Virus record (IMG/VR): IMGVR_UViG_3300042398_000275
Location: 1 to 48,069 of that record
DNA: 48,069 nucleotides
Source: a virus
Strand: one strand, 5' to 3'
Below are positions 31,022 through 48,069 of the stretch, one piece after another; the stretch's first letter is position 1; the number at the start of each line of letters is the position of its first letter. The translations under genes and the position numbers were made by a program. The notes beneath the pieces are model-generated. The model saw only the letters and a list, made by a program, of their open reading frames with translations, had not been told where the DNA came from and did no database searches.

Positions 31022-32247
31022 ACAAAGACTTTCTACTAAACGACAGCAAAACATTCTGTATGTTTCCGTGGTTGCACTTAAATGTGACACCAAAAGGTGA
31101 CATATACCCTTGCTGTAGTAACGACTACACAACACCTTTTGGTAATACTAAAGAGGTTACACTCAAACAAGCATTCAACAACCCCAAAATGAAAGAACTC
31201 AGATTGGATATGCTTAATGAACGTAAGAATGAAATCTGTAAGTTCTGCTATCAGCACGAAGAAGCAGGTCCGCATAGCTTCCGTAACTATAGCAAAGAAC
31301 ACTTCGGTAAGCACTTTGATGAAATAGTCCCCACAACCAAGGAAGACGGAACGGTTGAGGACTTTAAGATGCACTACTTTGATATCAGATTCAGTAACAT
31401 CTGTAACTTCAAATGTCGTACATGTGGCTCAGAATTTTCTAGTCAATGGGGCATGGAGATGAACAAGAACTATGATAAGAATCACCCAATCGTTATTCAC
31501 GTAGATGACGGTAAAGGTAAAGTTCTTGAGGAAGTACTCGAACACGTAGAGCATATTGACCTAGCATACTTTGCTGGTGGCGAACCACTAATCACAGAAG
31601 AACATTATGTGATGCTAGAAGAAATGATTCGCAAGGGTCGTACCGATATTACATTACGATACAATACAAACGCAAGCAATATCAAGTACAAGAATCACAA
31701 TGTACTTGACTTATGGAAACACTTTAAGAAGGTTGAGTTGAGTTGTTCAATTGACCATTACGGCGAACGTGCTGAACTATTACGAGCCGGAACCGATTGG
31801 GGCAAAGTTGAAAGTAATCTGTTAACATTCCGTGACTTAGATTATGTCAGCTTCCAAATGAACACCGTATTCTCAATTTTCAACTATATGACTATTGGTG
31901 AGTTCTATCAATATCTCAAAGACAAGAACATTGTGCGTAAAGAAGATTGGTATCACAGTTTGTATCTAGCAGTACATCCTGACTACTACAGTGCTAAGAG
32001 TCTACCCAAAGAGTTAAAGATTGAAGCCGCTGAAAAGGCAATGAAGTGGGTAGATAGTAACAAGAATGACTATACTTGCCTCCCCCGCTTAGTTACTGAT
32101 GCAGTTAACTTTGCTAAAGACGGTGACAGTTGGAGTGAAGTTCGTACAAAGTTTTTAGGTCATACTAAATCGTTAGATCGTATCAGAGATGAAAGTTTCT
32201 GGAAAACGTTCCCTGAATTAAATAAATTATCTGAATTGTTGGAGTAA
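31018..32247 (+). CDS. Twitch-domain radical SAM protein, paralogue 2
   Basis: 409 residues. The N-terminal twitch-type region has C14 (TFCMFPWLHLN), the C32-C33 pair (IYPCCSND) and C74-x2-C77 (EICKFCYQ), enough for an auxiliary iron-sulfur cluster. The SAM cluster follows as C129-x3-C133-x2-C136 (NICNFKCRTC), then AGGEPLIT. The C-terminal part carries VELSCSIDHYGERAELLR, typical of the barrel strand before the substrate face. The twitch domain thus precedes the radical SAM core, the reverse of SPASM proteins. The gene starts with an ATGA overlap and lies directly between two relatives, suggesting tandem duplication. Substrate unknown; a sugar or peptide is plausible from context. Confidence 0.85.
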   Translation: MNKDFLLNDSKTFCMFPWLHLNVTPKGDIYPCCSNDYTTPFGNTKEVTLKQAFNNPKMKELRLDMLNERKNEICKFCYQHEEAGPHSFRNYSKEHFGKHFDEIVPTTKEDGTVEDFKMHYFDIRFSNICNFKCRTCGSEFSSQWGMEMNKNYDKNHPIVIHVDDGKGKVLEEVLEHVEHIDLAYFAGGEPLITEEHYVMLEEMIRKGRTDITLRYNTNASNIKYKNHNVLDLWKHFKKVELSCSIDHYGERAELLRAGTDWGKVESNLLTFRDLDYVSFQMNTVFSIFNYMTIGEFYQYLKDKNIVRKEDWYHSLYLAVHPDYYSAKSLPKELKIEAAEKAMKWVDSNKNDYTCLPRLVTDAVNFAKDGDSWSEVRTKFLGHTKSLDRIRDESFWKTFPELNKLSELLE

Positions 32248-32249
32248 TC

Positions 32250-33521
32250 ATGGATAAAGTAACAGTTGAAAGCTTAGTCAAACATGGCAAGCATTTCTGC
32301 GTATTGCCCTGGGTGCATTTTCATTCATGGCCTGATGGTCGTGTTATGCCTTGCTGTATCGCAGACAGCAATATGCCCGTAGCCGATCTTAAAAACGGTG
32401 AGTCTATCATCAATATGATGAATAGCGAGGACTATAAGAAACTGCGTAGCGCAATGATGAACGATGAGCCGGTTGACGCTTGTAAGCGTTGCTATGACTT
32501 AGAGTTAATGGGTACATGGACAATGCGTCAAAGTCACAATAAGCGTAAAGGTCTAGAGTATGTAGATTATATCGCAGACAGTACATTAGATGACGGAAGT
32601 CTCATTGACTTTGAAATGAAGTACATGGACTTACGTTTCAGTAATATCTGTAACATGAAATGTCGCAGTTGTGGACCTGGCTGCTCTAGTCTATGGGCAC
32701 AAGAATTTATAGACCGTGTTGATATGGACAACTATAAGAAGTATTTCAACACAACTAAGGTAGTAGTTAACGCATCAGAAGAAATGGACTTTATGAACAA
32801 ACTAAAGCCCTATCTAAATGACGTTACAGAAGTATATTTTGCAGGTGGTGAGATTGTCATTACTCCAGAGCACTATGAATGCTTAGACTACTGGATTGAA
32901 AACGGAATTAACGAAACAATTGAGTTGACTTATACAACAAACTTCAGTACATTGAAGGGCTATAAGGACAATGACTTGATTGAATATTGGAAGAAATTCC
33001 CTAAACTGAAGATTTGGGCATCACTTGACGCACATGGTGATGTTGCTGAATGCATCAGAAAGGGTACAGATTGGGATCGTATTGTTAAAAATATCAAGTT
33101 AGTTAAAGAGCAAGTTCCGCATGCTGAATTTCAGATTACTCCAACTATCAGCATTTGGAACGTGTTCACATTCCCTGACTTCTTTGACTACATGGTCAAC
33201 GAAGGGTTTATTGATACTAAGAGTAGCCCCCGCTTCAACTTAGCAACTAACCCATGGTATGCTAACATTATGATCCTACCCGTTAGTGTAAAGCGCAGAC
33301 TGGCAGAGTTGTATCGTGTCTATCAGAATAGATACAAAGATAACATTGATATCTACAATGGATTCAAGATGATTATCTATAACTTGACAGTTGGTGATGA
33401 GAACAAAGAGGGTATCTTAGAGTTCATCAAGTTCAATGAGGAGCTTGATGTATATCGTAAAGAAAAACTAGAAGAAATCGTACCAGAACTTAAAGAGGTG
33501 TTTGATTGGGCAAGAAACTAA
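32250..33521 (+). CDS. Twitch-domain radical SAM protein, paralogue 3 (GGEI variant)
   Basis: 423 residues, clearly related to the preceding protein: C17 (HFCVLPWVHFH), C35-C36 (VMPCCIAD) and C78-x2-C81 (DACKRCYD) for the auxiliary cluster, then C134-x3-C138-x2-C141 (NICNMKCRSC) with an extra C145 close by. The following motif reads AGGEIVIT instead of the usual GGEP; the acidic residue that binds SAM is kept, so it may still be active. A segment LKIWASLDAHGDVAE corresponds to LSCSIDHYGERAE of paralogue 2. Two bases separate it from the gene upstream, with TTGGAG as ribosome site, and its end overlaps the next gene by 16 bases. Confidence 0.83.
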   Translation: MDKVTVESLVKHGKHFCVLPWVHFHSWPDGRVMPCCIADSNMPVADLKNGESIINMMNSEDYKKLRSAMMNDEPVDACKRCYDLELMGTWTMRQSHNKRKGLEYVDYIADSTLDDGSLIDFEMKYMDLRFSNICNMKCRSCGPGCSSLWAQEFIDRVDMDNYKKYFNTTKVVVNASEEMDFMNKLKPYLNDVTEVYFAGGEIVITPEHYECLDYWIENGINETIELTYTTNFSTLKGYKDNDLIEYWKKFPKLKIWASLDAHGDVAECIRKGTDWDRIVKNIKLVKEQVPHAEFQITPTISIWNVFTFPDFFDYMVNEGFIDTKSSPRFNLATNPWYANIMILPVSVKRRLAELYRVYQNRYKDNIDIYNGFKMIIYNLTVGDENKEGILEFIKFNEELDVYRKEKLEEIVPELKEVFDWARN

Positions 33522-34498
33522 TAGCTGTTGAAGCACCCGAGAAGTACATTGCTATTACATGGCAAGTAAACAACTTCTGTAACTTTAAGTGCAGTTACTG
33601 CAATCCGGGCAACTGGGGAGGCAGTAATCGTAACGAAGGTAACTTAGACAAGTACTTAGAGAACTTGGGTGTAATCGTTAATCGTTATCGTGCCGCAGGA
33701 TACAAGAACTTCAAGTTCTTCTTCAGTGGTGGAGAACCTACAGCTTGGGAGAATTTCATTCCTATCTGTGAATGGATTCACAAGACACTACCCAAGAGTA
33801 CTCTAGCGGTTAATACTAATCTAAGTCGTCCTACAGCATGGTGGGAAAAGCACTATCATTTATTTGACGATATTGTAGCAAGCTTTCACGTAGAGTTTGC
33901 AGACAAGAAACGCTATGAGACCAACAGTATATTCTTATGCGACAAGGTCAACTATCTGTCTACAAAGATGCTAATGCACGAAGAAAGGTTTTGGGAAGTC
34001 GTTGAATTTGCAGAGCATTTGAAGACAGTCATGCCTAATTACTTTATTGAGTGGACTCCGTTATATGATGAATTAAATCACGTAACCGGTCCGTGGCAAT
34101 ATAAAGATGAAGCTAAGACAGAATTCTTTAAGACACACAATTGCGAAATGCAATTTACCCGTGACAAGCCAAATAAACGCACAGAAAACACAGTGAGTTA
34201 TAATCGTTATGAGGACAATTCGTCACAGGTTTGTAATGCTAACGACCTAATCGTTACAGGACAGAACTTCTACAAAGGATGGAATTGTAACGTGGGTGAC
34301 TGCGTGTTCATAAATACCATTGGCGATGTTAGTCTTGCAAGTTGCGGCCTAGGGGGATATGTAGGTAATATATTAGACGATATCTCACGTGTAGGCCCCA
34401 AACAAATCGTGTGTAGAAAAGAAATGTGCATGTGTGGCACGGATATTATTATTCCCAAATTTGATGGTGAATGGATGGATTTAAATGGAAATAAATGA
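33506..34498 (+). CDS. Radical SAM protein with C-terminal cysteine cluster (TTG start)
   Basis: 330 residues. The SAM cluster lies close to the N-terminus at C25-x3-C29-x2-C32 (NFCNFKCSYC), followed by FSGGEPTAWENF. It has no N-terminal twitch region. Instead, eight or so cysteines gather in the last 100 residues (SQVC, WNCNVGDC, ASCGLGG, VCRKEMCMCG), resembling a SPASM-type auxiliary cluster domain. This places it in a different radical SAM subfamily from its three neighbours. The TTG at 33506 is chosen because the frame has no nearby in-frame ATG and GAGGTG lies five bases before it. It overlaps the gene upstream by 16 bases and the next by 14. Substrate unknown. Confidence 0.78.
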   Translation: MGKKLIAVEAPEKYIAITWQVNNFCNFKCSYCNPGNWGGSNRNEGNLDKYLENLGVIVNRYRAAGYKNFKFFFSGGEPTAWENFIPICEWIHKTLPKSTLAVNTNLSRPTAWWEKHYHLFDDIVASFHVEFADKKRYETNSIFLCDKVNYLSTKMLMHEERFWEVVEFAEHLKTVMPNYFIEWTPLYDELNHVTGPWQYKDEAKTEFFKTHNCEMQFTRDKPNKRTENTVSYNRYEDNSSQVCNANDLIVTGQNFYKGWNCNVGDCVFINTIGDVSLASCGLGGYVGNILDDISRVGPKQIVCRKEMCMCGTDIIIPKFDGEWMDLNGNK

Positions 34499-35807
34499 CA
34501 GTACTCCTGTAAAGATTGTATATAATTGGATCGGGCCACGTGGCCCTATTATCAATACAGAGCTACCAAACATATTAAGCTTTGCTAACGTTGGTGAGTC
34601 ATCGTTTGTTAACAGCAACAGATTCTGGGCTGACGATATATACTGGCGTGTATTCATGCACAGTGGCAATTATCCTATTAGCCCTTCATACAATATAGAT
34701 GATAAAGACGCATTCATTTTTCCTTATACATTAGCCTGGCGCGTTCAATTTCATAATTACTTCTTAAGTGATGGTGGTATCATGGAATTTAGTCATACCC
34801 CTAATCATGTTATTCATCAAGTGAGACATCATAACGGATTTTTCTTAATTGATTACTCGCCTGAAGCTTGGGTGCAAGACAATCAACTACAAGTCATGCA
34901 TAGTTATTTCCAACACTTTAATAAGATTAACATGGGCAAAGTTATCTACATCACAGGATGTATGAACGCTCAAGAAATATACGATAATTGGTGCAATAGA
35001 AACGGTATTCCCGATCATCCTATGTTCCGTATGATTATGGTTCCGTTCCCCATTAGTCAACATTCTATTAGTTGTCAATTAGATCAAGTAGAAGAACCTG
35101 TATATGATGAAAATACTATCCCTGAAAAGGTTTTTCTATGCTGGAATCGTAGATTCAGAAATCATCGTACACAGTTAGCACTTGCATTAGATAAAGCCGG
35201 ACTAGTTGATCGTAGCTATTATAGCATGAATTTAATTGATCCAGAGATGAATAGTCTACAATTTAAAAGCACAGTAGACGTTTATTACAACCCAATGTTA
35301 GGTTTAACGGGTCAGGACGCTGAACAATTCATTAGTAAATTACCATTATCAATTGATAGTGAGACTGATATTATGCGTATGTGTGGTGACTTTGACAGAG
35401 CCGCAAAAGACTTCTACTCTAATAGTTTAGTCAGTATCATTACAGAGACTAACTTTGAACTAAGCGAATTAACTGCTACTGAAAAGACATGGAAGCCTGC
35501 GAAAGAAAAACACCCGTTTATCATGGTAGGTGCCGCAGGTGCATTGCGTACATTACGTGAGTTTGGCTTTCAAACGTTTGATGAATTTTGGGATGAATCA
35601 TATGATGATATTGAAGATCCTAGACAACGACTATATAAGATAGTGCAAGTTTGTAAAGAGATTGGTTCATGGACTCCAGAACAAATACTTGATTTCAAAC
35701 GCAGGGTAAAACCTATAGTAGAACACAACTACCAAATGTTGAAAACAAATACAGCTAAACGTGTAGCAGATAAAATTAGAACAGAAATGGCAAAGAGGAT
35801 AAAATGA
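34485..35807 (+). CDS. EKT/YDDIED-domain protein, probable GT-B-like glycosyltransferase (1)
   Basis: 440 residues. The N-terminal half (Trp/His/Phe-rich, for example NYPISPSY and HHNGFFLIDYSPE) is not recognised. The C-terminal half has two linked blocks shared with three other proteins here: a N-x(5)-HR block (CWNRRFRNHRTQLALALDKA) and an EKT block with E333 (TATEKTWKPAKEKHPFIMVG, then LREFGFQTFDEF and ESYDDIEDPRQR). The order (ET in ITETNF, then TEKT, then a hydrophobic PF-I strand) resembles the donor-binding end of GT-B enzymes such as GT10 fucosyltransferases; that link is inference. It starts 14 bases inside the radical SAM gene and ends with an ATGA overlap into the epimerase gene. 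Confidence 0.55.
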   Translation: MEINDSTPVKIVYNWIGPRGPIINTELPNILSFANVGESSFVNSNRFWADDIYWRVFMHSGNYPISPSYNIDDKDAFIFPYTLAWRVQFHNYFLSDGGIMEFSHTPNHVIHQVRHHNGFFLIDYSPEAWVQDNQLQVMHSYFQHFNKINMGKVIYITGCMNAQEIYDNWCNRNGIPDHPMFRMIMVPFPISQHSISCQLDQVEEPVYDENTIPEKVFLCWNRRFRNHRTQLALALDKAGLVDRSYYSMNLIDPEMNSLQFKSTVDVYYNPMLGLTGQDAEQFISKLPLSIDSETDIMRMCGDFDRAAKDFYSNSLVSIITETNFELSELTATEKTWKPAKEKHPFIMVGAAGALRTLREFGFQTFDEFWDESYDDIEDPRQRLYKIVQVCKEIGSWTPEQILDFKRRVKPIVEHNYQMLKTNTAKRVADKIRTEMAKRIK

Positions 35808-36781
35808 AAAAGATACTAGTATGTGGTGCAGGTGGATTCATTGGATCTCACTTAGTAAAAAAGTTAAGAGAAGATGGGCATTACGTAATTGGCGCTGATT
35901 TAAAAGCACCAATTTATGAGCCTACGGCTGCTAATGAATTTCACATAATGGATTTACGTGACCAACGTAGAGTTAGTAAACTACTTAATGGTACAATTGA
36001 TGAAATATATCAATTAGCAGCCGACATGGGCGGTGCCGGATATGTATTTACCGGTGAGCACGATGCTGATATCATGCACAACAGTGCAATGATTAATCTA
36101 AACATACTAGACGAAATGCGTACTAAAGGTGTTAAAAAGATATTCTATAGTAGTTCAGCATGTATGTATCCTGAACACAATCAACTAGACCCCGATAATC
36201 CATTACTAAGTGAAGATAGTGCGTACCCTGCAAATCCAGACAGTGAGTATGGATGGGAGAAACTATTCAGTGAAAGACTTTATCTAGCATACGCTAAGAA
36301 CTATGGAATCGATGTACGTATTGCACGATTTCATAATATATTTGGCACGCAAGGATCATGGAATAATGGTAAAGAGAAAGCACCAGCGGCTCTTTGCAGA
36401 AAAGTAGCAACCGTCGAGTCCGGAGGAACAATTGAAATATGGGGTCCGGGCACTCAAACACGTAGCTTTCTATATGTAGATGATTGTGTAGAAGGTATAC
36501 AGCGTTTGATGAGTAGTAACTTCACAGGCCCAGTTAATCTGGGCAGTGAACGTATGATTAGTATTAATAATCTAGTGTATCTGATTGCTGAACTAATTGG
36601 TAAAGAAGTGAACATACAGAACGTACCGGGCCCAATGGGTGTCATGGGACGTAATAGTGATAATAGACTTATTAGAGAAAAACTAAACTGGGCACCACAA
36701 GACAATTTAGAGGATGGTTTGTTAAAAACATACGATTGGATTTTAGAACAAATCGAACAAGGTAAACAGGATGATAAATGA
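35804..36781 (+). CDS. GDP-mannose 3,5-epimerase-like NAD-dependent SDR
   Basis: 325 residues, full length for an extended short-chain dehydrogenase. The NAD motif is G8-x2-G11-x2-G14 (GAGGFIGS). The active-site pattern is C120 in YSSSACMYPE, Y149-x3-K153 (YGWEK) and K192 in GKEKAPAALCRK, matching the catalytic Cys, Tyr/Lys and Lys of plant GDP-mannose 3,5-epimerase; the ADMGGAG, ARFHNIFG, TQTRSFLYVDDCVEG and GRNSDN stretches also fit that family closely. The expected reaction is GDP-mannose to GDP-L-galactose or GDP-L-gulose in the cytoplasm. Both ends overlap neighbours by ATGA, with GAGGAT as ribosome site. A related GDP-sugar epimerase or dehydratase remains possible, but the GME-specific blocks make this one of the best-supported enzymes here. 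Confidence 0.83.
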   Translation: MKKILVCGAGGFIGSHLVKKLREDGHYVIGADLKAPIYEPTAANEFHIMDLRDQRRVSKLLNGTIDEIYQLAADMGGAGYVFTGEHDADIMHNSAMINLNILDEMRTKGVKKIFYSSSACMYPEHNQLDPDNPLLSEDSAYPANPDSEYGWEKLFSERLYLAYAKNYGIDVRIARFHNIFGTQGSWNNGKEKAPAALCRKVATVESGGTIEIWGPGTQTRSFLYVDDCVEGIQRLMSSNFTGPVNLGSERMISINNLVYLIAELIGKEVNIQNVPGPMGVMGRNSDNRLIREKLNWAPQDNLEDGLLKTYDWILEQIEQGKQDDK

Positions 36782-37863
36782 CAAGAGCATATATCATTCA
36801 ACTTTGGCCCCCACAACGGTATGATTATTTTATACCTATAGTTCAAGATATAAAAGAAAAAAACCCTGACAAAATTCTAGTATTTTCGTTGGGGGAAATT
36901 AATGTAGAGTACATATATCAATATTTGTTTCCTGATATCCAAGATTGGCTTATTAAGAACAACAAGTACATGTATATTCTTTGGGCCGGCCCAGATTTAG
37001 AACTGTATCCGCATATTATGTGCGTAAACACACTAGGATCAACATGGGGAAACGTTTCAAATGTTCGCGGGCTTACGAAACAGTACGGTGAACCCGATCT
37101 ATCTAATTGTACCAAATTATTTACATCATATAATAACAATGCTAAATTTGAACGCAAATACTTTGTAGATAAGTGTGCTGAGTATGATTTAATTAAAGAC
37201 GGAATTGTAACGTATAGATATCCCGATAACAAGACCAATCCTCACTATGAATGGAAATATCATGACGGATCTGTATTATTTGATGAGCCAAACTTTAAAT
37301 TAGATGCTAGTGCTGAATTTAGTGCAGGGGGATTGCCTAAACGCTATTTCGAAGGGTTTATTGATATAGTATGTGAAACTGATAGCCGTAACGGATTCTT
37401 TATACCAACAGAAAAGACTGCTAAACCTTGGGGAGCAATGAAGCCCTACTTAGTTATTAGTAGTATGAATTATCATCGTTGGTTATACGAAGAATACGGT
37501 ATTGAAATGTATGACGAACTATTTGACTATAAATTTGACAACGAGCCGAATCTGAGAACTCGCATTAATTTTATAGTCTATAACCTTATAAAACTACGTG
37601 CTAAATTTAACAAAAATCCAAATCTTATGTTAGAGATATATGAAAAAATAAAGCCGAAATTAAAACGAAACCGTACTACGGCTTTAAATATCATGCAGAC
37701 ACTTAGAGAAAAAAACAAGTTAATACCTGAATGTTTACAGTTCATAACTAAAGAATCTGATTATGAATTGTTAGGTGAAGTGAATAATTCTCAGGGAGGA
37801 TTGCATTTTTTAACAGACAAAGAATGGCACTTGGACTCCAGGTTCTTTTGGGAAAAGTTATGA
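36778..37863 (+). CDS. EKT-domain protein, probable GT-B-like glycosyltransferase (2)
   Basis: 361 residues. It opens with RAYIIQLWPPQRYDYFIPI and has a middle block FTSYNNNAKFERKYFVDK followed by YDLIKDGIVTYRYP, the counterpart of the N-x(5)-HR block in its relatives, though with ER in place of HR. The EKT block is at E212: FIPTEKTAKPWGAMKPYLVI, then EEYGIEMYDELFDYKFDNEP. The acidic YDDIED stretch is here DYKFDNEP. It lies directly behind the GDP-mannose epimerase-like gene (ATGA overlap), so a GDP-sugar donor is an attractive but unproven guess. The end overlaps the SGNH gene by ATGA. Confidence 0.55.
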   Translation: MTRAYIIQLWPPQRYDYFIPIVQDIKEKNPDKILVFSLGEINVEYIYQYLFPDIQDWLIKNNKYMYILWAGPDLELYPHIMCVNTLGSTWGNVSNVRGLTKQYGEPDLSNCTKLFTSYNNNAKFERKYFVDKCAEYDLIKDGIVTYRYPDNKTNPHYEWKYHDGSVLFDEPNFKLDASAEFSAGGLPKRYFEGFIDIVCETDSRNGFFIPTEKTAKPWGAMKPYLVISSMNYHRWLYEEYGIEMYDELFDYKFDNEPNLRTRINFIVYNLIKLRAKFNKNPNLMLEIYEKIKPKLKRNRTTALNIMQTLREKNKLIPECLQFITKESDYELLGEVNNSQGGLHFLTDKEWHLDSRFFWEKL

Positions 37864-38744
37864 AGAAAAAATATATTGTAGGTTTAGGATGCAGTTGGAC
37901 TCAAGGTGAAGGCGGGTACCCTGAGCATATATGGAATGAACACAATGGACATGTTCAATTACGTGGAGTCCCCGACCAACATTTACGTGTATATGAGCAT
38001 GAAAACAGTTGGGTCAACGTACTAAGCCGAGATCATTTTCCTGAATATACACCTATAAACTTAGGTGCACGTGGTATAGGAAACAATGCCGCTGTACATC
38101 AATTGCACTTTTGTGATAGAATAGACTGGGCCAATAGTGAGGGCTATATTGTTCTATTATTGAGTGGGTTTGAACGTTATGACTTTTTCCATCAGACTCC
38201 TAGATATAAGAACAATCATGATGACGGGTACAGCAACGGTGATTATACACACTATAAGTGGAGAACAGCTTGGCCTATCTCAGGTGAAGGTGGCGAAGAA
38301 GAACCTCTATGGGCTATATACGGTAAAATGTTATGGAGTGAACAATTCCAAGCAAGCAGTCAATTAATGGCTTTATTAGACTTACAGACATTCGCTAAAG
38401 CACACGGGTTTAAAGTCATTGTAGCTAACGCATTTAATCAATATCCTAAGAAAAATGCACTTGATGGTGTACAAACTTACATTATACAACAAACCGGTAG
38501 AATGGCTATGAAATTCGACTGGTCTACATATCTACACACTAAGACAGAATATACCGCAATGGTGCAACGACTAGTTGAACTTGACGGATTGATGAATCCA
38601 CAAGACTGGGGAGGTCATTACGAGTTCTATCAAAAGAGGGCATGGCCTGCTAAATACTTGACTAATTGTATCCATCCTACAATAGAGGGTTACAAGTTCA
38701 TCGCTAAAGAATTATCTCAATTTATAAAGACCTACCATGCATAA
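37860..38744 (+). CDS. SGNH/GDSL-type hydrolase 1
   Basis: 294 residues. The first block GLGCSWTQGEGG places S12 as the nucleophile of an SGNH-type esterase; NLGARGIGNNAA is the second block with its Gly and Asn; and NCIHPTIEGYKFI near the end gives H272 in the last block, where the usual Asp three residues earlier is Asn. SGNH enzymes add or remove acyl groups on sugars and lipids. There is no signal peptide, so it should act in the cytoplasm, for example on a nucleotide sugar or glycan. I chose the ATG at 37860 (ATGA overlap with the preceding stop); an in-frame ATG 36 bases earlier would add an unlikely 12 residues. Confidence 0.65.
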   Translation: MKKKYIVGLGCSWTQGEGGYPEHIWNEHNGHVQLRGVPDQHLRVYEHENSWVNVLSRDHFPEYTPINLGARGIGNNAAVHQLHFCDRIDWANSEGYIVLLLSGFERYDFFHQTPRYKNNHDDGYSNGDYTHYKWRTAWPISGEGGEEEPLWAIYGKMLWSEQFQASSQLMALLDLQTFAKAHGFKVIVANAFNQYPKKNALDGVQTYIIQQTGRMAMKFDWSTYLHTKTEYTAMVQRLVELDGLMNPQDWGGHYEFYQKRAWPAKYLTNCIHPTIEGYKFIAKELSQFIKTYHA

Positions 38745-40668
38745 GAAAAAGAAAATCAGTTTTGTTAGTCCCAATTTTCAACAAGGTCCGAAAGAATTAA
38801 ACGCCTTCTATCTTCCATATAGTACAGGCGTTCTTTGGAGCTATGTAAATCAATTCCCTATCGTACAAGATAACTATGAATTAGGTGAATTTGTATGGCG
38901 CCGCGAAGAAATCGCCAAAGTAGCAGAAGAATTAAAAGACAGCGATGTAGTCTGCTTCAGTTGCTATGTATGGAATCGTAGCTATACTACAGAACTTGGT
39001 AAAGCAATTAAAGCACTCAATCCAAACGTATTCATGATTGGTGGCGGCCCTGAATTTCCTATTGAAAAAGCAGATATATTTGAACGTTATTACTTCCTAG
39101 ACATTTGTGTAAAGCTTGAAGGTGAAAAAACATTCAGACGCATATTAGAGGAACATGTAAAAGAAACACCTGACTATAAATCAATTGCAGGTATGCTAGT
39201 AAATGAGAACGGTGTACCTTTTAATACAGGTGACACTGTTCGTATTGACGATTTAGACACTATTCCTAGTCCTTATTTAACAGGCGTGTTTGACAAATTA
39301 ATGACTAAGTATCCTGAGATACGTTGGAACGGCACACTAGAAACAAACCGTGGATGCCCTTATGCATGTACGTTTTGTGACTGGGGTAGCTTAACATATA
39401 ACAAAGTAAAGATATTCGACCTACAACGTGTGTTTGATGAACTAGAATGGATGGGTTCAAATAACTTTGACTTTATCAGTATTACAGATGCTAACTTTGG
39501 TATCTTTGCTGAACGTGATAGCATGATTGCTGATAAACTAATTGAAGTACAAAAGAAGTATGGTAACCCACGTGCATATACAATTGCTTGGGCCAAGAAT
39601 CAAAAGAAAGAAGTTGTTGATATTGTTAAGAAATTGATTTACGAAGGTGGAAGTAAATTAGGATTAAACTTATCAGTACAAACAATGGACGAGAACACAC
39701 TTGAGATTATCAAGCGTAAAAACCTAGATACAAACAAGATTGAAGATGTATTTGCATTGTGCGAAGAAAACAATATTCCATTGTATACAGAACTAATTCT
39801 AGGCTTGCCCGGTGAGACACTAAACAGTTGGAAAGAAAACTTCTCTAGACTGTATAAAGCAGGTAATCACACAGGTATTACTGTATATCAAGCCCAATTG
39901 CTTGAGAATGCAGAGATGAATTTAACACAGCGTAAGATGTATAAGCTTGAAGGTGGTATGGTATATGACTATCTTGCCGGCTCATATAACGAATATAACT
40001 TAGCTGAGGGTGTAGAGATTGTTGTTAGTACACGTGATTTACCTCCACCCAAGATGTTACAAGCACAATTATACAGTTGGTTTCAAAATACATTCCATAT
40101 TAACGGAATAACCAACTATATTTCTAGATTATTGTTCAAGAAATTTGGCATAGAGTATAGAGATTTCTATGATAAACTCTATGCGTATGTTGAAAACGAT
40201 CCATGGTATAAGAGTGAGATTGAAAGAATTACAGAGCATTATGGACATTGGGGTAAGCGTGGGAAGATTCAGCATGAACTAGTTGAGGGTATGGAGATTC
40301 ACGGTTGGAACTTGATTCACAGTACAATCATTATTTTACAGAGTTTGCACAAACATAAGCATACCTTTGAACTAATTGAGAGATTCATGCGTCAAGAATA
40401 TCCATTGGAAGAATCATTACATCAAGATATTATGAAACTACAGCGTAACTATTTGATTGACCATGCAGAGACTCAGAGTTATCCAAAGACATTAGATTTT
40501 AATCACGATATATTTGGGTATTTACAGGGTCAAAATGAATTAGAAGTTCCTTCTAGTTATATATTTGAATTCCCTGAGGATAAGGATATGTCATTGCAAA
40601 AGTTCTGTGAACAGATTTTCTTTGCAAGACGTAGAAACTTTGGAAAGGCATGGGTTTCTAGAAAATGA
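38737..40668 (+). CDS. Radical SAM protein, B12-binding-domain type
   Basis: 643 residues. Residues ~5-140 look like the Rossmann-like B12-binding domain found in such proteins (DVVCFSCYVWN, then FMIGGGPEFP), but the DxHxxG cobalamin motif is not visible, so B12 may not be bound. The SAM cluster is C207-x3-C211-x2-C214 (NRGCPYACTFC), followed by ISITDANFGIF and the strand LILGLPGET. The last 180 residues are helical and unrecognised, with many His and Trp. Members of this class make C-C bonds, methylations or ring changes; the substrate here is unknown. It overlaps the SGNH gene by 8 bases and the next gene by ATGA. Confidence 0.75.
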   Translation: MHKKKKISFVSPNFQQGPKELNAFYLPYSTGVLWSYVNQFPIVQDNYELGEFVWRREEIAKVAEELKDSDVVCFSCYVWNRSYTTELGKAIKALNPNVFMIGGGPEFPIEKADIFERYYFLDICVKLEGEKTFRRILEEHVKETPDYKSIAGMLVNENGVPFNTGDTVRIDDLDTIPSPYLTGVFDKLMTKYPEIRWNGTLETNRGCPYACTFCDWGSLTYNKVKIFDLQRVFDELEWMGSNNFDFISITDANFGIFAERDSMIADKLIEVQKKYGNPRAYTIAWAKNQKKEVVDIVKKLIYEGGSKLGLNLSVQTMDENTLEIIKRKNLDTNKIEDVFALCEENNIPLYTELILGLPGETLNSWKENFSRLYKAGNHTGITVYQAQLLENAEMNLTQRKMYKLEGGMVYDYLAGSYNEYNLAEGVEIVVSTRDLPPPKMLQAQLYSWFQNTFHINGITNYISRLLFKKFGIEYRDFYDKLYAYVENDPWYKSEIERITEHYGHWGKRGKIQHELVEGMEIHGWNLIHSTIIILQSLHKHKHTFELIERFMRQEYPLEESLHQDIMKLQRNYLIDHAETQSYPKTLDFNHDIFGYLQGQNELEVPSSYIFEFPEDKDMSLQKFCEQIFFARRRNFGKAWVSRK

Positions 40669-42725
40669 AACTTTGGTTTAGTATAGTTGAACATAATTTC
40701 AACAGTGAAGGGTTACTCAATATACTTGAGGAAGCAGTAAGTAAAAACGCCGATGAAGTTGTATTACTTGCCGAAACAGAATGGCAAACGCCCGGTCTAT
40801 ATGATGCAATAGTTAATAGATACAATGACAAGAACGTTAAGTTAACTATTATATATTGTTCAGTCAACAGTCCATATTATGAGAAATTCTGTAGCGACAC
40901 CGGCCTAGATATTAACAATTTACATTTCTGGCCTACCTATTGGTTGACTTGGAGCTTTGAGAATCTCTGTAGTACAGGAACATATCAGAACTTTACCGTT
41001 AATCCTGATGAACTTATATATCCATTTATATCATTAAACAACCGTAGTCACTTACATCGTTGTGTGTTTATGGATGAGTTGGCTAAGCAGAATCTAATTG
41101 ATAAGGGTGTAGTAACATGGGTCAAGCATTTGAATGAGAACCTAAACTATCCTTATCAACACTTTGATAATCGTCAATTAACATTAGAAGATGATTTTAA
41201 AACAAAGCTTGATTCATTCTTGATTCCTAAAGAGTTTAATCAATCATTGTTTCACGTAGTAACAGAAGCCACACACATTGCAGGGTTTATCAGTGAAAAG
41301 ACCGCTATCCCATTACTATTACAGAAGCCTTTTTTTGTAATATCGGCCCCAGGATATGTAAAGCATTTAGATGATTTAGGTTTTAAACGCTATGACGAGA
41401 TTATCGATTATAGTTATGACGATATAGAAGACCTACAACTACGTACAGAAAAGTTTGTTGACAATATTCATAGATTTAAGGACTTGAATCTAAAAGAAAC
41501 ATATGAGTTGCTAAGACCAAAGATTGAATATAATCACAAACGTGCATTACAGTTAATCCATGACCCTAATCAAATTCCTGATTTAATCAAAGAACGATAC
41601 GAAATCATTGAAAAAGAAGGTCGTACAATGCTTACTGACCATAGATATGTTAAGCTTGTTACTGATACAATGGACCCGTTAACAATGCATATTTGGGATA
41701 ATGATTTAAAAGAAAAAATCTTAAATATTCCTAATAGGTATTACGGTATAAACAGAATTATCCTTAACTCTGCGATAGAATACAATTATGATTTTATTGG
41801 CGGGCATAGAGATTTAATGAATTTTCTCATTCATATAACCAATAGATCAAACATTAAATTAGACATTATTACCGGTACACATTCCAATTACAAAAAAATC
41901 AATACTGATTTACATGAACATGTTAGTGTATATTACTGGCCTACGTTTTGGTTAACTATGTTGCTTATGCGTTTGTCGGTCAGTCCTAATTATCAGATGA
42001 ACAATTCAATTGGATTAGACATTCAAAAGATGCGTGTGAATGAACATACCCCTTTGCGTTATCCATATATCACAATGAATAAAGCTCCTAAGGTTCATCG
42101 TGCTATGATGATGGATATGCTTGCTAAGTATGAATTGATTGACAAGGGCGTGTGTATTTGGCGTGAACCTGCATGTAACTATCAGTATCAATATTGGACT
42201 GAAGAACTGTTAATGCGTGACCAAAAAGAAGGCTTTAGATATCAAGAACAACTACCAGTAGAGTATGCACTATCGTTCATGCAGATTGTTCCTGAATCTG
42301 ATGAAGAAATCTTTACAATGAGCGAAAAGACAGGCATGGCACTGTACTTCAACAAGCCGTTCTTAGTTATGGGTTGCATGAACTTTCACAAGATTCTGCA
42401 AGAACTTGGATTCAAACTGTATGACGAATTGTTTGATTATAGCTTTGACAGTGAGCCAGATACACTAAAGCGTTGCGAGTTAATTGCTCAAAACGTACAG
42501 CGTTATGCTGATAAGACTCCTGATGAATTAAAAGAATTGTATAAGTTAGTGTTTGAAAAATGTGTATATAACAAAGAAGTAGCAATCAAATTAGCCACAA
42601 ATAGTGAACTAATTCCTGAGGTTTGGCAAGACTTAGTGGACAGTCAATTGAAAAATAATATAGCCGACAGTGCTCCCGATATAAATAATTTCATCAAATC
42701 CACCAAGCATGAATTTAGACTTTAA
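40665..42725 (+). CDS. Duplicated EKT-domain protein, probable double GT-B-like glycosyltransferase
   Basis: 686 residues made of two related halves. Each half has FWPT(Y/F)WLT-type sequence (HFWPTYWLTW; YYWPTFWLTM), then a N-x-x-x-HR block (SLNNRSHLHRCVFMDELA; TMNKAPKVHRAMMMDMLA) ending LIDKGV, then the EKT block (E211 in SEKTAIPLLLQKPFFVI; E554 in SEKTGMALYFNKPFLVM) and the GFK(R/L)YDE segment with YDDIED or SFDSEP. The halves match along nearly their whole length, so this is an internal duplication and fusion. Two active sites with different acceptors, or one active and one structural half, are both possible. It overlaps neighbours by 4 and 17 bases. Confidence 0.6.
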   Translation: MKLWFSIVEHNFNSEGLLNILEEAVSKNADEVVLLAETEWQTPGLYDAIVNRYNDKNVKLTIIYCSVNSPYYEKFCSDTGLDINNLHFWPTYWLTWSFENLCSTGTYQNFTVNPDELIYPFISLNNRSHLHRCVFMDELAKQNLIDKGVVTWVKHLNENLNYPYQHFDNRQLTLEDDFKTKLDSFLIPKEFNQSLFHVVTEATHIAGFISEKTAIPLLLQKPFFVISAPGYVKHLDDLGFKRYDEIIDYSYDDIEDLQLRTEKFVDNIHRFKDLNLKETYELLRPKIEYNHKRALQLIHDPNQIPDLIKERYEIIEKEGRTMLTDHRYVKLVTDTMDPLTMHIWDNDLKEKILNIPNRYYGINRIILNSAIEYNYDFIGGHRDLMNFLIHITNRSNIKLDIITGTHSNYKKINTDLHEHVSVYYWPTFWLTMLLMRLSVSPNYQMNNSIGLDIQKMRVNEHTPLRYPYITMNKAPKVHRAMMMDMLAKYELIDKGVCIWREPACNYQYQYWTEELLMRDQKEGFRYQEQLPVEYALSFMQIVPESDEEIFTMSEKTGMALYFNKPFLVMGCMNFHKILQELGFKLYDELFDYSFDSEPDTLKRCELIAQNVQRYADKTPDELKELYKLVFEKCVYNKEVAIKLATNSELIPEVWQDLVDSQLKNNIADSAPDINNFIKSTKHEFRL

Positions 42726-43521
42726 AAAATATAAACGCATATTCGCATTTGGGTGCAGTTTTACGCACTACAAGTGGCCAACGTGGGCAGACTTAATATC
42801 AATCGAATCCCCTGACGCAATCTATCGTAACTATGGCTTTGCAGGCATGGGCAACCTAGCTATTTCAACACGTATCATTGAGGGTAGCAAACGTTTCAAC
42901 TTCAATAGTGATGACTTAATCTTAGTAATGTGGTCTACATTCTGTAGAGAAGATCGTTGGCTTAACGGCAGATGGTTTACTCAAGGCAGTGTGTATAATT
43001 CAACATATCCAGAAGATTGGATCAGAGATTACACTGACCCTAATGGTTACTTAATACGTGACCACGCACTAATCTATTCAACAAATCAGTATATAAAGAG
43101 TTTGGACTGTGATTCAGTCATACTCAAAAGTAGCCCCTTCGACTATACAGAAACAAACCCTGACAAAGAATCAGCTTATGTGCGTGATCAATTGTCACTC
43201 ATATACAAGAATGACTACAATAATTTGCCACTAGACTTTTATACATTTAATGGTAGTAGTTGGGGAAATGATACACAAGAATTTTTCGATGACTATAATA
43301 CTGATATAAAAATTCAAACTTGGCGCACAGATAGTCATCCATTTTCAGGATCCTATGTGAAATACCTAGAATTTATAGGCATTAAACTAAGTGATAGTAC
43401 AAAACGATTCGCAAATACATTTGACGAATTTATTAAAAGAAAACCTAAGATCACAGAGATGAATAAAAACATCGATTTTCTAAGACAGAATGTTGATCTA
43501 GGTGTAAATAGAATTTTTTGA
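42709..43521 (+). CDS. SGNH/GDSL-type hydrolase 2
   Basis: 270 residues. Block one is FAFGCSFTHYK with S17 as likely nucleophile; GFAGMGNLAIS supplies the Gly and N49 of the oxyanion side; D208-S-H210 (RTDSHPFSGSYVKYL) is the probable Asp/His of the last block. About 50 residues follow that are charged and helical, with no clear role. Compared with the first SGNH protein it shares the GCS-(W/F)-T opening and the glycine-rich Asn block but little else, so the two probably act on different acyl groups. It has no signal peptide. Its ATG lies 17 bases inside the duplicated glycosyltransferase gene. Confidence 0.6.
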   Translation: MNLDFKKYKRIFAFGCSFTHYKWPTWADLISIESPDAIYRNYGFAGMGNLAISTRIIEGSKRFNFNSDDLILVMWSTFCREDRWLNGRWFTQGSVYNSTYPEDWIRDYTDPNGYLIRDHALIYSTNQYIKSLDCDSVILKSSPFDYTETNPDKESAYVRDQLSLIYKNDYNNLPLDFYTFNGSSWGNDTQEFFDDYNTDIKIQTWRTDSHPFSGSYVKYLEFIGIKLSDSTKRFANTFDEFIKRKPKITEMNKNIDFLRQNVDLGVNRIF

Positions 43522-43534
43522 TTTTGAGGAACAC

Positions 43535-46500
43535 ATGAAAAAAGTAGCAATGATTGGTGTAGGTAAGTTAGGACAAGATTGTGCAGAGGTTATGGCTGAC
43601 GCAGGGTATGACGTTGTAGGATATGACGTAGAGACTAGGCTTCCAATGTTCCCTATGAAAGATACAATTGAAGAAGCAGTTAAAGACAGAGACTTAATCT
43701 TCATCGCGGCCCCTACTCCGCACGATCCTATCTACGGTGGTGAAACACCAACAAGTCACTTGCCTAACAAGGACTTTGACTATACTATCGTTACAGATAT
43801 CTTGAAAGAGGTCAATAAACACGTTAATAGAAGTCAATTGGTTGTCCTCATCAGCACAGTGCTACCCGGAACAGTTCGTAGCATCCTAGAGCCTTGTATC
43901 ACTAATGCAAGATTCATCTACAACCCATACTTAATTGCTATGGGTACTGTAAAATGGGATATGGTAAATCCAGAGATGGTAATCATTGGCACAGAAGATG
44001 GTAGCCTCACGGGTGATGCTAGTGAACTAATTGACTTCTATAAAGTGTTTATGCAGAATGATCCACGATATGAAGTTGGTACATGGGACGAAGCAGAATC
44101 TATCAAGATATTCTACAACACATTTATCAGTACTAAGCTTGCACTTGTAAACATGATCCAAGACGTTGCTGAAACAAATGGTAATATTAACGTTGACATA
44201 GTTACAAATGCATTAGCAAAGAGTAACTATCGCATCACTGGCCCTGCATACATGAAAGCGGCTTTTGGTGATGCAGGAGCATGTCACCCGCGTGATAACA
44301 TTGCATTGCGTTATCTGTCCGATAGGTTAGATATGGGCTATGACTTGTTTGATGCTATTATGAAAGCACGTGAAGTACAAGCAGAGCGTATGGCATTACG
44401 TTGCTTGCGTAATGGTAAGAACATTACTATCGTTGGTAAAGCGTATAAGCCTGCAGTTCCATATACAATTGGTAGTGCTAGTATGTTAGTAGGTTACTAT
44501 ATTGAGAAGCATGGTGGCAACTTAAACTACTATGATCCTAACACTGGTGATATGGACTTGCGTGAAGACTGGACACACGTATACTTAATAGGCTATTGGG
44601 AAGATTGGGTTGAGAAGTTACAGTTTAGCGATCCAGGCTGTGTAGTTATTGATCCATGGCGTAAGCTAACAACTAGACAACACACTGGTGAAATCATTCA
44701 TTATGGTGACACACGATCAAAGAAAACATACAGTGTCCCTGAATCTACTATTCAGACAATGCGTAATCAAGTCTATGAGATGTTCACTGATTTAAGACAA
44801 CATGATAGTGAAATTCATTTGGTTGATAGTACTATTAACATGGACACAACATTTGTATTGCGTCCAACAGAAGATTTAGTAAAAGAATTGCTTGAAGCAA
44901 AAGCACAAGGTCGTAGTAAGTTCTTGTTCTTTGCACCAACAGAAGCATTTATGCCTCATGTAGTGTCTAAAGTTCAACGTCTTGCTAGCATACTAGATGG
45001 TAAAATCGATGAAGCTGATATTACAGTTATTACCGGCGTCATTGACGCTGATGAAGTTTACGAACGCCTTTTAAAAAAAAACGGTTGGAACAAGCGGCTT
45101 AATCTATTAAACTGTCATTTCTTTAATTACATAACCACTACGTATGCTCGTGGCTACGAGTTTATTGGTGGATATGATGTACGTTTCCGTGGCAAGATAT
45201 TTACTTGCTTTAATAAACTAAACCGTGAACACCGTCTAGTATTACTAGAACGTATGTTACGAACTAACCTGATTGATAATGCATATTATTCATTTGAGGG
45301 TGAGAGCGACTTTAAACAAAACATTCCAACACTAAGCAATGAAGAATTCCCAGAAATCAAACGCAATGAAGACCGTTTCCCTATTCGATTAAACATTACA
45401 CCTGAACGTCATAACCCAGTTGACATTCAGCCTGATGATTTACATTATTACAAAGACAGCTATTTTTCAATCGTATCTGAGACACTGTTCTATAATAAAG
45501 ATAGACTGGGTCAAGCACATAGACCTTTTGTTGAGGACTCATTGTTCTTAACAGAAAAAACATATCGTTGCTTTGCAACATTGCATCCATTCATATTAAT
45601 GGCTCGTCCTCATTCATTGAAAGAGTTGCGTAAGCAGGGCTACAAAACATTTACTCCGTTTATTAATGAATCATATGATGATATTGAAGACGATAACCAA
45701 CGCTTTGAGGCTATCTTTAAGGAAATCGTTAGATTGAATCTCTTTACAGGTGCTGATTGGACATTGTGGCAAGAAGGTATCAAACCTATCGTAGAATATA
45801 ACAAAGAATTCTTTCACAATAACAAAGACTTTGCTATTACAAAAGACTATTTACGTTACTTTGGTCATGCTGTTCCTGCTCAAATTGTTGTACAAGAACA
45901 ACCTAAAACTGAAACACCTAAGTTAGAACAGGAATCAATGATTGAATCAGTAATACAACGACTTATTAACGGCTCTCCACCAGAACCAGAACCCAAAGAT
46001 TTAACACCAATGGAAGCATTGAGTAATAAACTAGATTGGAGAAACAGTCAAGTTGTTTACGATAATGGAATAACACTTAACTTCCCATGTCATATTGATG
46101 GTGGGGGAGATTTATATAGAAATGAATTGATAGCATTGATTGAAAGAACCGGACAGAAAACTAATTATGAATCAGCACTTGATTGGTGTGCAGGTCATGG
46201 ACCTTTTGGTTTTGAATTAATAGATAGTAACATTGCAGAAATTGTAACGTTTATGGATTCCTACGCACCTGCGATAGAATCATGTATTAAGAATGCACAG
46301 GAAAACAACATCGCTGATAAGGTAACTGGTTACACATGTGATAAGATATCATTGATTCCAATAACTGAAAAGTTTGATTTGGTAGTGGCAAACCCTCCCC
46401 ATAGTAATATTACAACCTATATAGAAAAGAATGAATTCTTTGCAAACACTGTTAGAATGATAGTTGATGAGGGATTTGAAATGCATAGAGAATTCTTTGA

Positions 46501-46672
46501 CAATATTCATAAGTACTTAACTGATGATGCTGATGTATACATTACCGCCGGCAACAACTTAACACCCTTTGCAAATTGGGCATATGCAGGTCAATTGAAG
46601 TTTATGGGTTTTAGTCCATGTGCTAGTGCTCAAGGTGGTATCTATCATTTTAGAAAAATTACTCCAAACTGA
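43535..46672 (+). CDS. Trifunctional fusion: nucleotide-sugar 6-dehydrogenase, EKT domain, methyltransferase
   Basis: 1,045 residues. Residues 1-400 form a UDP-glucose/GDP-mannose dehydrogenase: NAD motif MIGVGKLG, STVLPGT, the catalytic C250 in GACHPRDNIAL and GKAYKPAVPYTIGSAS; the product would be a uronic acid. Residues ~400-810 hold an EKT unit: FNKLNREHRLVLLERML, then E674 in TEKTYRCFATLHPFILM, KQGYKTFTPF and ESYDDIEDDNQR. After a Pro/Glu-rich linker (~812-850) comes a methyltransferase with DWCAGHGPFGFE at ~882 and VVANPPHS at ~950, like the NPPY type of PrmC/HemK-class enzymes. GAGGA lies four bases before the ATG. The fusion implies that oxidation, transfer and methylation act on one product. 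It ends the cassette. Confidence 0.75.
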   Translation: MKKVAMIGVGKLGQDCAEVMADAGYDVVGYDVETRLPMFPMKDTIEEAVKDRDLIFIAAPTPHDPIYGGETPTSHLPNKDFDYTIVTDILKEVNKHVNRSQLVVLISTVLPGTVRSILEPCITNARFIYNPYLIAMGTVKWDMVNPEMVIIGTEDGSLTGDASELIDFYKVFMQNDPRYEVGTWDEAESIKIFYNTFISTKLALVNMIQDVAETNGNINVDIVTNALAKSNYRITGPAYMKAAFGDAGACHPRDNIALRYLSDRLDMGYDLFDAIMKAREVQAERMALRCLRNGKNITIVGKAYKPAVPYTIGSASMLVGYYIEKHGGNLNYYDPNTGDMDLREDWTHVYLIGYWEDWVEKLQFSDPGCVVIDPWRKLTTRQHTGEIIHYGDTRSKKTYSVPESTIQTMRNQVYEMFTDLRQHDSEIHLVDSTINMDTTFVLRPTEDLVKELLEAKAQGRSKFLFFAPTEAFMPHVVSKVQRLASILDGKIDEADITVITGVIDADEVYERLLKKNGWNKRLNLLNCHFFNYITTTYARGYEFIGGYDVRFRGKIFTCFNKLNREHRLVLLERMLRTNLIDNAYYSFEGESDFKQNIPTLSNEEFPEIKRNEDRFPIRLNITPERHNPVDIQPDDLHYYKDSYFSIVSETLFYNKDRLGQAHRPFVEDSLFLTEKTYRCFATLHPFILMARPHSLKELRKQGYKTFTPFINESYDDIEDDNQRFEAIFKEIVRLNLFTGADWTLWQEGIKPIVEYNKEFFHNNKDFAITKDYLRYFGHAVPAQIVVQEQPKTETPKLEQESMIESVIQRLINGSPPEPEPKDLTPMEALSNKLDWRNSQVVYDNGITLNFPCHIDGGGDLYRNELIALIERTGQKTNYESALDWCAGHGPFGFELIDSNIAEIVTFMDSYAPAIESCIKNAQENNIADKVTGYTCDKISLIPITEKFDLVVANPPHSNITTYIEKNEFFANTVRMIVDEGFEMHREFFDNIHKYLTDDADVYITAGNNLTPFANWAYAGQLKFMGFSPCASAQGGIYHFRKITPN

Positions 46673-46725: not shown

Positions 46726-48069
46726 TTGGATTTTACTTTAAGATCATTGGCAGTTGACGAACTAAAGCCTAAGGAACGTCCCACAGAGGATATCGCGGAT
46801 GCACGCCATCGTAGTATGATGGAAGCAATTGCTCCTTATGCTAAGACGACTGTACAAAAGAACTTAACTCCTGTATATGTTGATTACAAGACCCGCAACA
46901 CAAAACTAGCATTAGTATTGTGTCCTGAATGGTCACCCTACATGCCCCCGTTTAGTCTTGCCCGATTGAGCGGTGTTGCTAAGAGTTCGGGTTATGAGAC
47001 ACACATAATTGACTTGAACGTTAAAGCGTATAACGCATTTAAGAAAGACTGGTGGCCTAATCAAAGAATTCCATTCAGACTATGGGATCCTTCTAGCTCT
47101 TGGCATTGGATGGGCGATACTTACATGAATGATATTCATCCATTGTTAGGTCCTGAGATATTAAGCCCTGCAGTAGATAAGATCATTGAAATGAATCCTG
47201 ATGTAGTAGGCTTCAGTGTTTACTATATCAGTGAAGAACCTACCAAGTGGATGTGTCAAGAGATTAAGCGTAGAGCACCTCACATTAAGATTGCTGTAGG
47301 TGGACCTAACGTACACAAGAGTTGGTTCGCAACACATCCATACTATGACTATGTTGTAGTAGGTGAAGGTGAACAGAACTTACTTGTCATGCTTGACGAG
47401 ATTGAAGAAAAGAAAGAAGTAGAATATCCTCGCTATCTTACACAGCCTGAAGAACAACGTATCAATATTAACGGTTTGCCGATGCCTGACTATGAATCTA
47501 TTGATTTCAGTCAGTATGAATTACCTAATGGTGTGAATAGTGAGATATCACGCGGATGTACAGCTAAGTGTACATTCTGTGAAGAAACACACTTCTGGAA
47601 GTATCGTCAGCGTCAGAGTGTTGACTTGATTACTGAAGTTGAGTGGTTGTATTACAATAAAGGTACAGATATTATTTGGTTCATTGATAGTCTTATCAAT
47701 GGTAACCCTAAAGAACTACGTGCGTTTGCTCTTGCTCTTAAAGAGAAAGACTTGAAAGTAAAGTGGACAGGCTATGCACGTTGCGATGGTCGTATGGACC
47801 TAGCGTTCTTACAAGACTTGGCAGATGGCGGCTGTATCATGTTTAACTTTGGTGTTGAATCAGGTTCACAAAAAGTTCTTGATGACATGGCTAAAGGTGT
47901 TACTATTAAAGAGATGGAACAAAATTTCATCGATTGTAAAAAAGTTGGTATCTGGGCAGCTACTAATTGGATTGTAGGATTTCCCACAGAAGACTACCAA
48001 GACTATAGTGACACAATGACATTCTTATGGCGTATGCGTAACAACAATATCAACAACGCAGGACTAGGT
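46726..48069 (+). CDS. B12-binding-domain-type radical SAM protein, 3' end outside window (TTG start)
   Basis: 448 codons are visible and the frame is open at the right edge. After a 55-residue N-terminal extension, residues ~60-230 form a B12-binding-like domain (KLALVLCPEWSPYMPP, PDVVGFSVYYISEE, IAVGGPNVHKSW, YVVVGEGEQNLL). The SAM cluster is C278-x3-C282-x2-C285 (SRGCTAKCTFC), followed by IIWFIDSLINGN and FNFGVESGSQKVLDDM, typical of the B12-radical SAM superfamily. The DxHxxG cobalamin motif is not clear. The TTG at 46726 is chosen because AGGAG lies six bases before it; no ATG occurs earlier in this frame after the previous gene. It differs from the other B12-type protein of the cassette. 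It probably opens a new operon from its own sigma70-like promoter. Confidence 0.75.
   Translation, partial: MDFTLRSLAVDELKPKERPTEDIADARHRSMMEAIAPYAKTTVQKNLTPVYVDYKTRNTKLALVLCPEWSPYMPPFSLARLSGVAKSSGYETHIIDLNVKAYNAFKKDWWPNQRIPFRLWDPSSSWHWMGDTYMNDIHPLLGPEILSPAVDKIIEMNPDVVGFSVYYISEEPTKWMCQEIKRRAPHIKIAVGGPNVHKSWFATHPYYDYVVVGEGEQNLLVMLDEIEEKKEVEYPRYLTQPEEQRININGLPMPDYESIDFSQYELPNGVNSEISRGCTAKCTFCEETHFWKYRQRQSVDLITEVEWLYYNKGTDIIWFIDSLINGNPKELRAFALALKEKDLKVKWTGYARCDGRMDLAFLQDLADGGCIMFNFGVESGSQKVLDDMAKGVTIKEMEQNFIDCKKVGIWAATNWIVGFPTEDYQDYSDTMTFLWRMRNNNINNAGLG

Follow-up and report, generated by a model that had tools for sequence, protein, structure and literature searches.

The window analysed here comprises all 48069 bases of an IMG/VR virus record, which is itself probably a fragment. 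Upstream of a cassette of glycan genes there are a baseplate wedge gene, a gene for a virion structural protein of 6528 aa (phrog_10938) and fibre-like genes. The 6528-aa frame occupies 3777-23363, and by its size and place it would fit the giant VrlC-type gene that is described ahead of host recognition clusters. The order found, a baseplate gene, a giant structural gene and then fibre-like and glycan genes, is that of a host recognition cluster. Judged by its genes, the locus is a host-recognition (tail-proximal) glycan cassette of a T4-like phage.

The cassette includes a nucleotide-sugar epimerase/dehydratase (35804..36781, +), two separate EKT-family paralogues (34485..35807, + and 36778..37863, +) and a tandem double EKT-family protein (40665..42725, +). 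Six radical SAM proteins, two of them SPASM-type and two B12-binding, are encoded at 29606-34498, 38737-40668 and 46726-48069. Small proteins starting with GCSxT motifs (37824-38744 and 42709-43521) look SGNH-hydrolase-like by eye, with no family match.

The three-domain fusion ORF (43535..46672, +) has an ATG start and zero internal stops, and its one open frame encodes 1045 aa, which agrees with the single product proposed in an earlier sequence-only reading. It consists of an NDP-sugar (UDP-glucose-type) dehydrogenase domain (UG; aa 1-395, 43535..44719, +) that matches PF03721, PF00984, phrog_9148 and UGDH structures, an EKT domain of predicted GT-B fold (aa 396-785, 44720..45889, +), a fast-diverging Pro/Glu-rich linker (aa ~786-835, 45890..46039, +) and an Asc-Orf2-like class I methyltransferase domain (MT; aa 836-1045, 46040..46669, +). 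That reading had put GACHPRDN, an EKT block and NPPH in one frame with the linker before the last domain, and we verified the positions: GACHPRDN with the catalytic Cys and Asp at aa 248-255 (44276..44299, +), TEKT within the EKT domain at aa 673-676 (45551..45562, +) and NPPH at aa 953-956 (46391..46402, +). The DGGG motif of the MT family was mapped from the family alignment to 46097..46108 (+). Pfam matches of the ORF were PF03721 (1e-16), PF00984 (2e-13) and PF05175 (methyltransferase-small domain, 4e-8), and the stretch between dehydrogenase and MT had zero known families in Pfam and PHROGs. The following gene (46726..48069, +) encodes a B12-binding radical SAM protein with its 3' end beyond the record, and it is the next gene in all fusion-bearing related loci that reach that far. 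The component enzyme kinds are known; the architecture is new.

The dehydrogenase domain matched phrog_9148 (UDP-glucose dehydrogenase) at 2.8e-93 and UGDH structures at about 1e-19. Its NAD-binding and central domains exceeded the curated cut-offs (PF03721, 61.5 bits; PF00984, 50.6 bits), and the C-terminal UDP-binding domain was weak (PF03720, E 0.12). Thr118, Lys204, Asn208, Cys260, Asp264 (S. pyogenes numbering) and GxGxxG are kept in comparison with human and E. coli UGDH, and the catalytic Cys260, Asp264, Lys204, Asn208 and Thr118 were present in all 78 phage members. The same 78 of 78 members had Tyr10 replaced by Lys, Glu141 by Tyr and Glu145 by Met; in the window the latter Tyr and Met lie in an NPYLIAMGT motif (43922..43948, +), and the Asn287 site is Arg. 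A survey of 229 NDP-sugar dehydrogenases found Glu141 and Asn287 invariant and Tyr10 98% conserved, and Tyr10 is said to catalyse thioester hydrolysis (PMC4794789). Glu141 is an active-site loop residue, and crystals of an enzyme mutated at its human counterpart, E161, contained the thiohemiacetal intermediate (PMC3184952). Because Tyr10 and Glu141 are both replaced throughout the 78 members, we classify the domain by its sequence as a divergent subfamily and not as canonical UGDH. Lys and Tyr at these two sites may compensate for each other, so we put forward a loss of thioester hydrolysis in the subfamily as a hypothesis only. The uronic acid formation claimed earlier is weakened by these replacements, which leave free uronic acid as product unproven.

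The altered motif is not restricted to phages. Among 385 alphaproteobacteria-class genomes there were a few UG-subfamily members, at least two of them with the altered motif, and the idea that it was phage-only was dropped because these genomes carry the same kind of change. Dehydrogenases from two such genomes (L265, L266) had NPYLIAQGT and NPFFIAMGT, respectively, with CHPRDN. A search of 292 genomes from the phylum to which a cyanobacterial MAG belongs, run with no positive control, gave zero UG-subfamily members at 1e-40.

When 114 EKT homologues were aligned, Lys, Gly, Asp, Arg and Asn were invariant and Glu, Asn and Arg were near-invariant. Sequence searches with EKT gave zero matches in Pfam, PHROGs and NCBIfam, nothing meaningful with the profile against PDB sequences, and none against isolated phages by tblastn. 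The AlphaFold model, with mean pLDDT 91.6, matched GT-B enzymes by Foldseek, with trehalose-phosphate synthases best (2.4e-4) and SdgB, BshA and TarM also among them; an alpha-1,3-fucosyltransferase matched more weakly, and TM-scores to solved structures were about 0.4. GT10-type proteins were among the viral structure matches, together with a 788-aa phage protein named UDP-glucose dehydrogenase, which shows that the two-domain UG-EKT form is already in public databases. In hhalign the GT10 motif was aligned with E 0.015 but with probability 3, which is not significant, and there was no PF00852 Pfam match. The model supports assigning EKT to the GT-B fold class, with two Rossmann-like domains, and the family is unsettled. 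This predicted fold lends support to the transfer role given to EKT before. The view of EKT as one special block does not hold, since the window carries five EKT copies, and there are up to seven EKT genes in related loci.

The MT domain had one outstanding relative. Against PDB chains its sequence matched 9L4Q at 1.3e-20, followed by HemK at about 1e-4, and its AlphaFold model (pLDDT 94.8) matched the same entry at 1.1e-18 with TM 0.80, the runner-up being at 4.5e-9. The title of 9L4Q is "carbamoyl N-methyltransferase Asc-Orf2 complexed with SAH", and Asc-Orf2 is identical at 17 of the 19 columns conserved in the phage MT family. An open-access literature search gave no paper naming 9L4Q, NPPH methyltransferase or carbamoyl N-methyltransferase. 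In the MT tree Asc-Orf2 groups, on a long branch, with carbamoyltransferase-adjacent MTs (SH-aLRT 82), and the split that separates these from the fused MTs is well supported. Cellular MT relatives in genome contigs were weak, with best identity of 28% and many spanning just the core. Since Asc-Orf2 is nearest by both sequence and predicted fold, and carbamoyltransferase genes are neighbours, the methyl target is probably a carbamoyl or carboxamide nitrogen. It means that the methylation of uronic acid suggested from the sequence fits the MT family poorly. In other phages, further stand-alone MTs of this family (L095, L137, L139, L161) adjoin nrdB, head-tail adaptor, uvsY-like and major head genes.

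Related loci were collected by a scan of viral contigs, which gave 80 loci, and by a second scan with the MT alignment, which gave 80 further loci; alignments were used as queries, a scan with a single MT sequence having given one locus only. By domain mapping the triple fusion is present on six distinct contigs, the window and five others from different metagenomes (L003, L004, L006, L087, L088), so the domain order does recur elsewhere. There were also UG-EKT fusions (L005, L007-L010 and L011, the last truncated by the contig end), UG-MT fusions without EKT (L092/L093, L101-L104, L121/L124), UG genes next to an EKT-MT gene (L012, L013, L091), which overlap by 1-4 bases, and fully split UG, EKT and MT forms. 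Homologues are thus not always encoded apart in unrelated loci: joined, partly joined and split arrangements share one conserved locus type, and the gene-fusion argument stands because all of these forms occur in related loci.

When 78 UG domains were placed in a tree, the triple fusions fell into a single clade (SH-aLRT 94), and UG genes switched between having and lacking a fused MT at least three times along that tree. Between the window and L006, dN/dS was 0.066 for the dehydrogenase, 0.081 for EKT and 0.071 for MT, and the drifting linker had 35% identity. These ratios show purifying selection on each of the three domains. The recurrence of the same fusion, the tree pattern of split and joined forms, and the low dN/dS beside a drifting linker exclude an assembly artefact; the triple fusion is genuine, and functional linkage of the three domains is the straightforward reading.

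Of the 22 related records, 18 encode a carbamoyltransferase, which lies downstream in all 11 MT-bearing related records that extend more than 2 kb past the fusion. Three of the four records that lack it (the window, L004 and L121) end less than 2 kb after the fusion, the window upstream of the expected position, and in the fourth (L020) neither the UG nor the EKT genes carry an MT. In L006 the fusion is followed by a B12 radical SAM protein, a 200-aa DegT-type aminotransferase, an unnamed 324-aa protein, an EKT protein and the carbamoyltransferase, which has PF02543 and PF16861 and is NodU-like, though below the NCBIfam cut-off. Stand-alone MT genes directly follow a carbamoyltransferase gene in L147, L148 and L158-L160 and are beside one in L146, L150 and L152, these eight loci representing only a few distinct lineages. 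Close MT-less relatives carry the carbamoyltransferase too, so its presence is not MT-specific, and the correlation of the two genes was set aside as a test.

We propose, and give about an even chance to, a three-step sugar-decoration enzyme that would carry out oxidation, GT-B transfer and carbamoyl-type N-methylation, with substrates, carbamoyl target and final role being putative. The dehydrogenase domain would oxidise an NDP-hexose, most likely UDP-glucose, at C6; transfer of the sugar would fall to the GT-B EKT domain; and the tethered MT would N-methylate a carbamoyl-type group on the transferred sugar, with the fusion holding the steps together. The acceptor may be an O-carbamoyl added by the NodU-like carbamoyltransferase encoded downstream in relatives, or a C6 carboxamide. 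The product would serve in a surface glycan of the phage or of the host, which the sequence cannot tell apart. This proposal takes in the domain identities, the triple, double and split forms, the purifying selection, the EKT fold, the Asc-Orf2 match and the carbamoyltransferase neighbours. Counted against it are the separation of Asc-Orf2 from fused MTs, the MT-less relatives with carbamoyltransferase, the early end of the window, the other stand-alone MTs beside head-tail adaptor, nrdB and uvsY, the GT-B TM of about 0.4 and the lack of an EKT family match.

Packed, overlapping phage genes might have been joined by stop-codon loss or frameshift with no gain from tethering, as the overlaps of 1-4 bases between UG and EKT-MT genes and the interchange of fused and split states among relatives would allow; the triple fusion was nevertheless kept as one clade under strong purifying selection with its flexible linker maintained, and several different domain combinations arose, so we hold an incidental fusion to be unlikely. 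The retained UGDH-site Cys, Lys, Asn, Asp and Thr and the direct UG-MT fusions without EKT would also suit a dehydrogenase making ordinary uronic acid, which EKT transfers and MT methylates on the uronic acid itself, as ester or O-methyl. The replacement of Tyr10 and Glu141 argues against this, as does the MT itself, an N-methyltransferase of NPP(Y/H) type whose nearest relative is a carbamoyl N-methyltransferase, and we consider this reading quite unlikely.

We find it improbable to much the same degree that MT acts in a HemK/PrmC-like way on protein carboxamide (Gln/Asn) of virion or other proteins, with the sugar tie made via a glycoprotein. HemK/PrmC are indeed the next sequence matches, and stand-alone MTs adjoin core phage genes such as that for the head-tail adaptor. 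Against this stand a carbamoyl N-methyltransferase as much the closest match, the recurrent joining of MT with a sugar dehydrogenase, and its adjacency to carbamoyltransferases. A variant with a very small chance would have ammonia or an amine take the uronyl thioester in a dehydrogenase without Tyr10 and Glu141; the resulting C6 carboxamide would then be methylated by the fused MT, and one polypeptide would make, transfer and N-methylate a uronamide. NadE (PF02540) was found in 0 of 22 related records and Asn synthase (PF00733) in none above cut-off, with one sub-cut-off match, and both were rejected as amidating partner. Amide ligases were thus not found over cut-off in these 22 records, whereas marine phages with related dehydrogenases have an adjoining NadE-like gene.

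For the proposed three-step enzyme, the relatives with parts joined or split in many ways suggest that the three enzymes act on one sugar decoration, and its chemistry is better described as oxidising and transferring a sugar and N-methylating a carbamoyl-type group, with putative substrates throughout. Phage host-recognition islands are rich in glycan genes whose chemistry is largely uncharted. A natural fusion set of sugar dehydrogenase, GT-B enzyme and Asc-Orf2-like MT predicts a definite product that can be looked for, namely a sugar bearing an N-methylcarbamoyl group or an N-methyl-uronamide. The fusions also hint at what the large, unnamed EKT family does and draw attention to a dehydrogenase subfamily with altered active site.

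Compared with UDP-glucose 6-dehydrogenase (phrog_9148), the UG domain has the same NAD-binding and central domains, Cys/Asp/Lys/Asn/Thr set and GxGxxG, but differs at Tyr10, Glu141 and Glu145, in its weak PF03720 and in being fused to two further domains. EKT resembles GT-B enzymes (OtsA, BshA, TarM and GT10-type viral proteins) in its predicted two-Rossmann fold, and its conserved Glu and TEK motif are placed similarly to GT10 EN..TEK; unlike them it has no database family match, and TM is about 0.4. The phage MT shares the DGGG, WCxG, NPPH, D and H..F motifs and TM 0.80 with Asc-Orf2 (9L4Q), whereas identity is 22-23%, an Arg that never varies among the phage MTs is missing in Asc-Orf2, and the phage MT is a domain of a fusion.

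The isolated marine phages Bellamy, HTVC008M, S-SSM7 and Sf-FS3 (L083, L167, L168, L171) have a row of methyltransferase, NadE-like ammonia ligase and UDP-glucose dehydrogenase genes, which suggests uronamide formation there. Their genes are separate, with a different methyltransferase and with the NadE-like gene missing in the 22 records here, but a dehydrogenase of the same or a related subfamily likewise stands in a phage sugar cassette, and Bellamy and HTVC008M also have a carbamoyltransferase. Host recognition clusters of pelagimyophages and cyanomyophages, for which a role in serotype conversion has been proposed, contain glycosyltransferases, radical SAM cassettes and UDP-glucose 6-dehydrogenase (PMC7029224). 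The genes are separate in the passages describing them, which mention neither a fusion nor a carbamoyl methyltransferase. The present locus agrees with these clusters, as described there, in that a hypervariable island follows the giant structural gene and includes tail fibre, glycosyltransferase, radical SAM and UDP-glucose 6-dehydrogenase genes.
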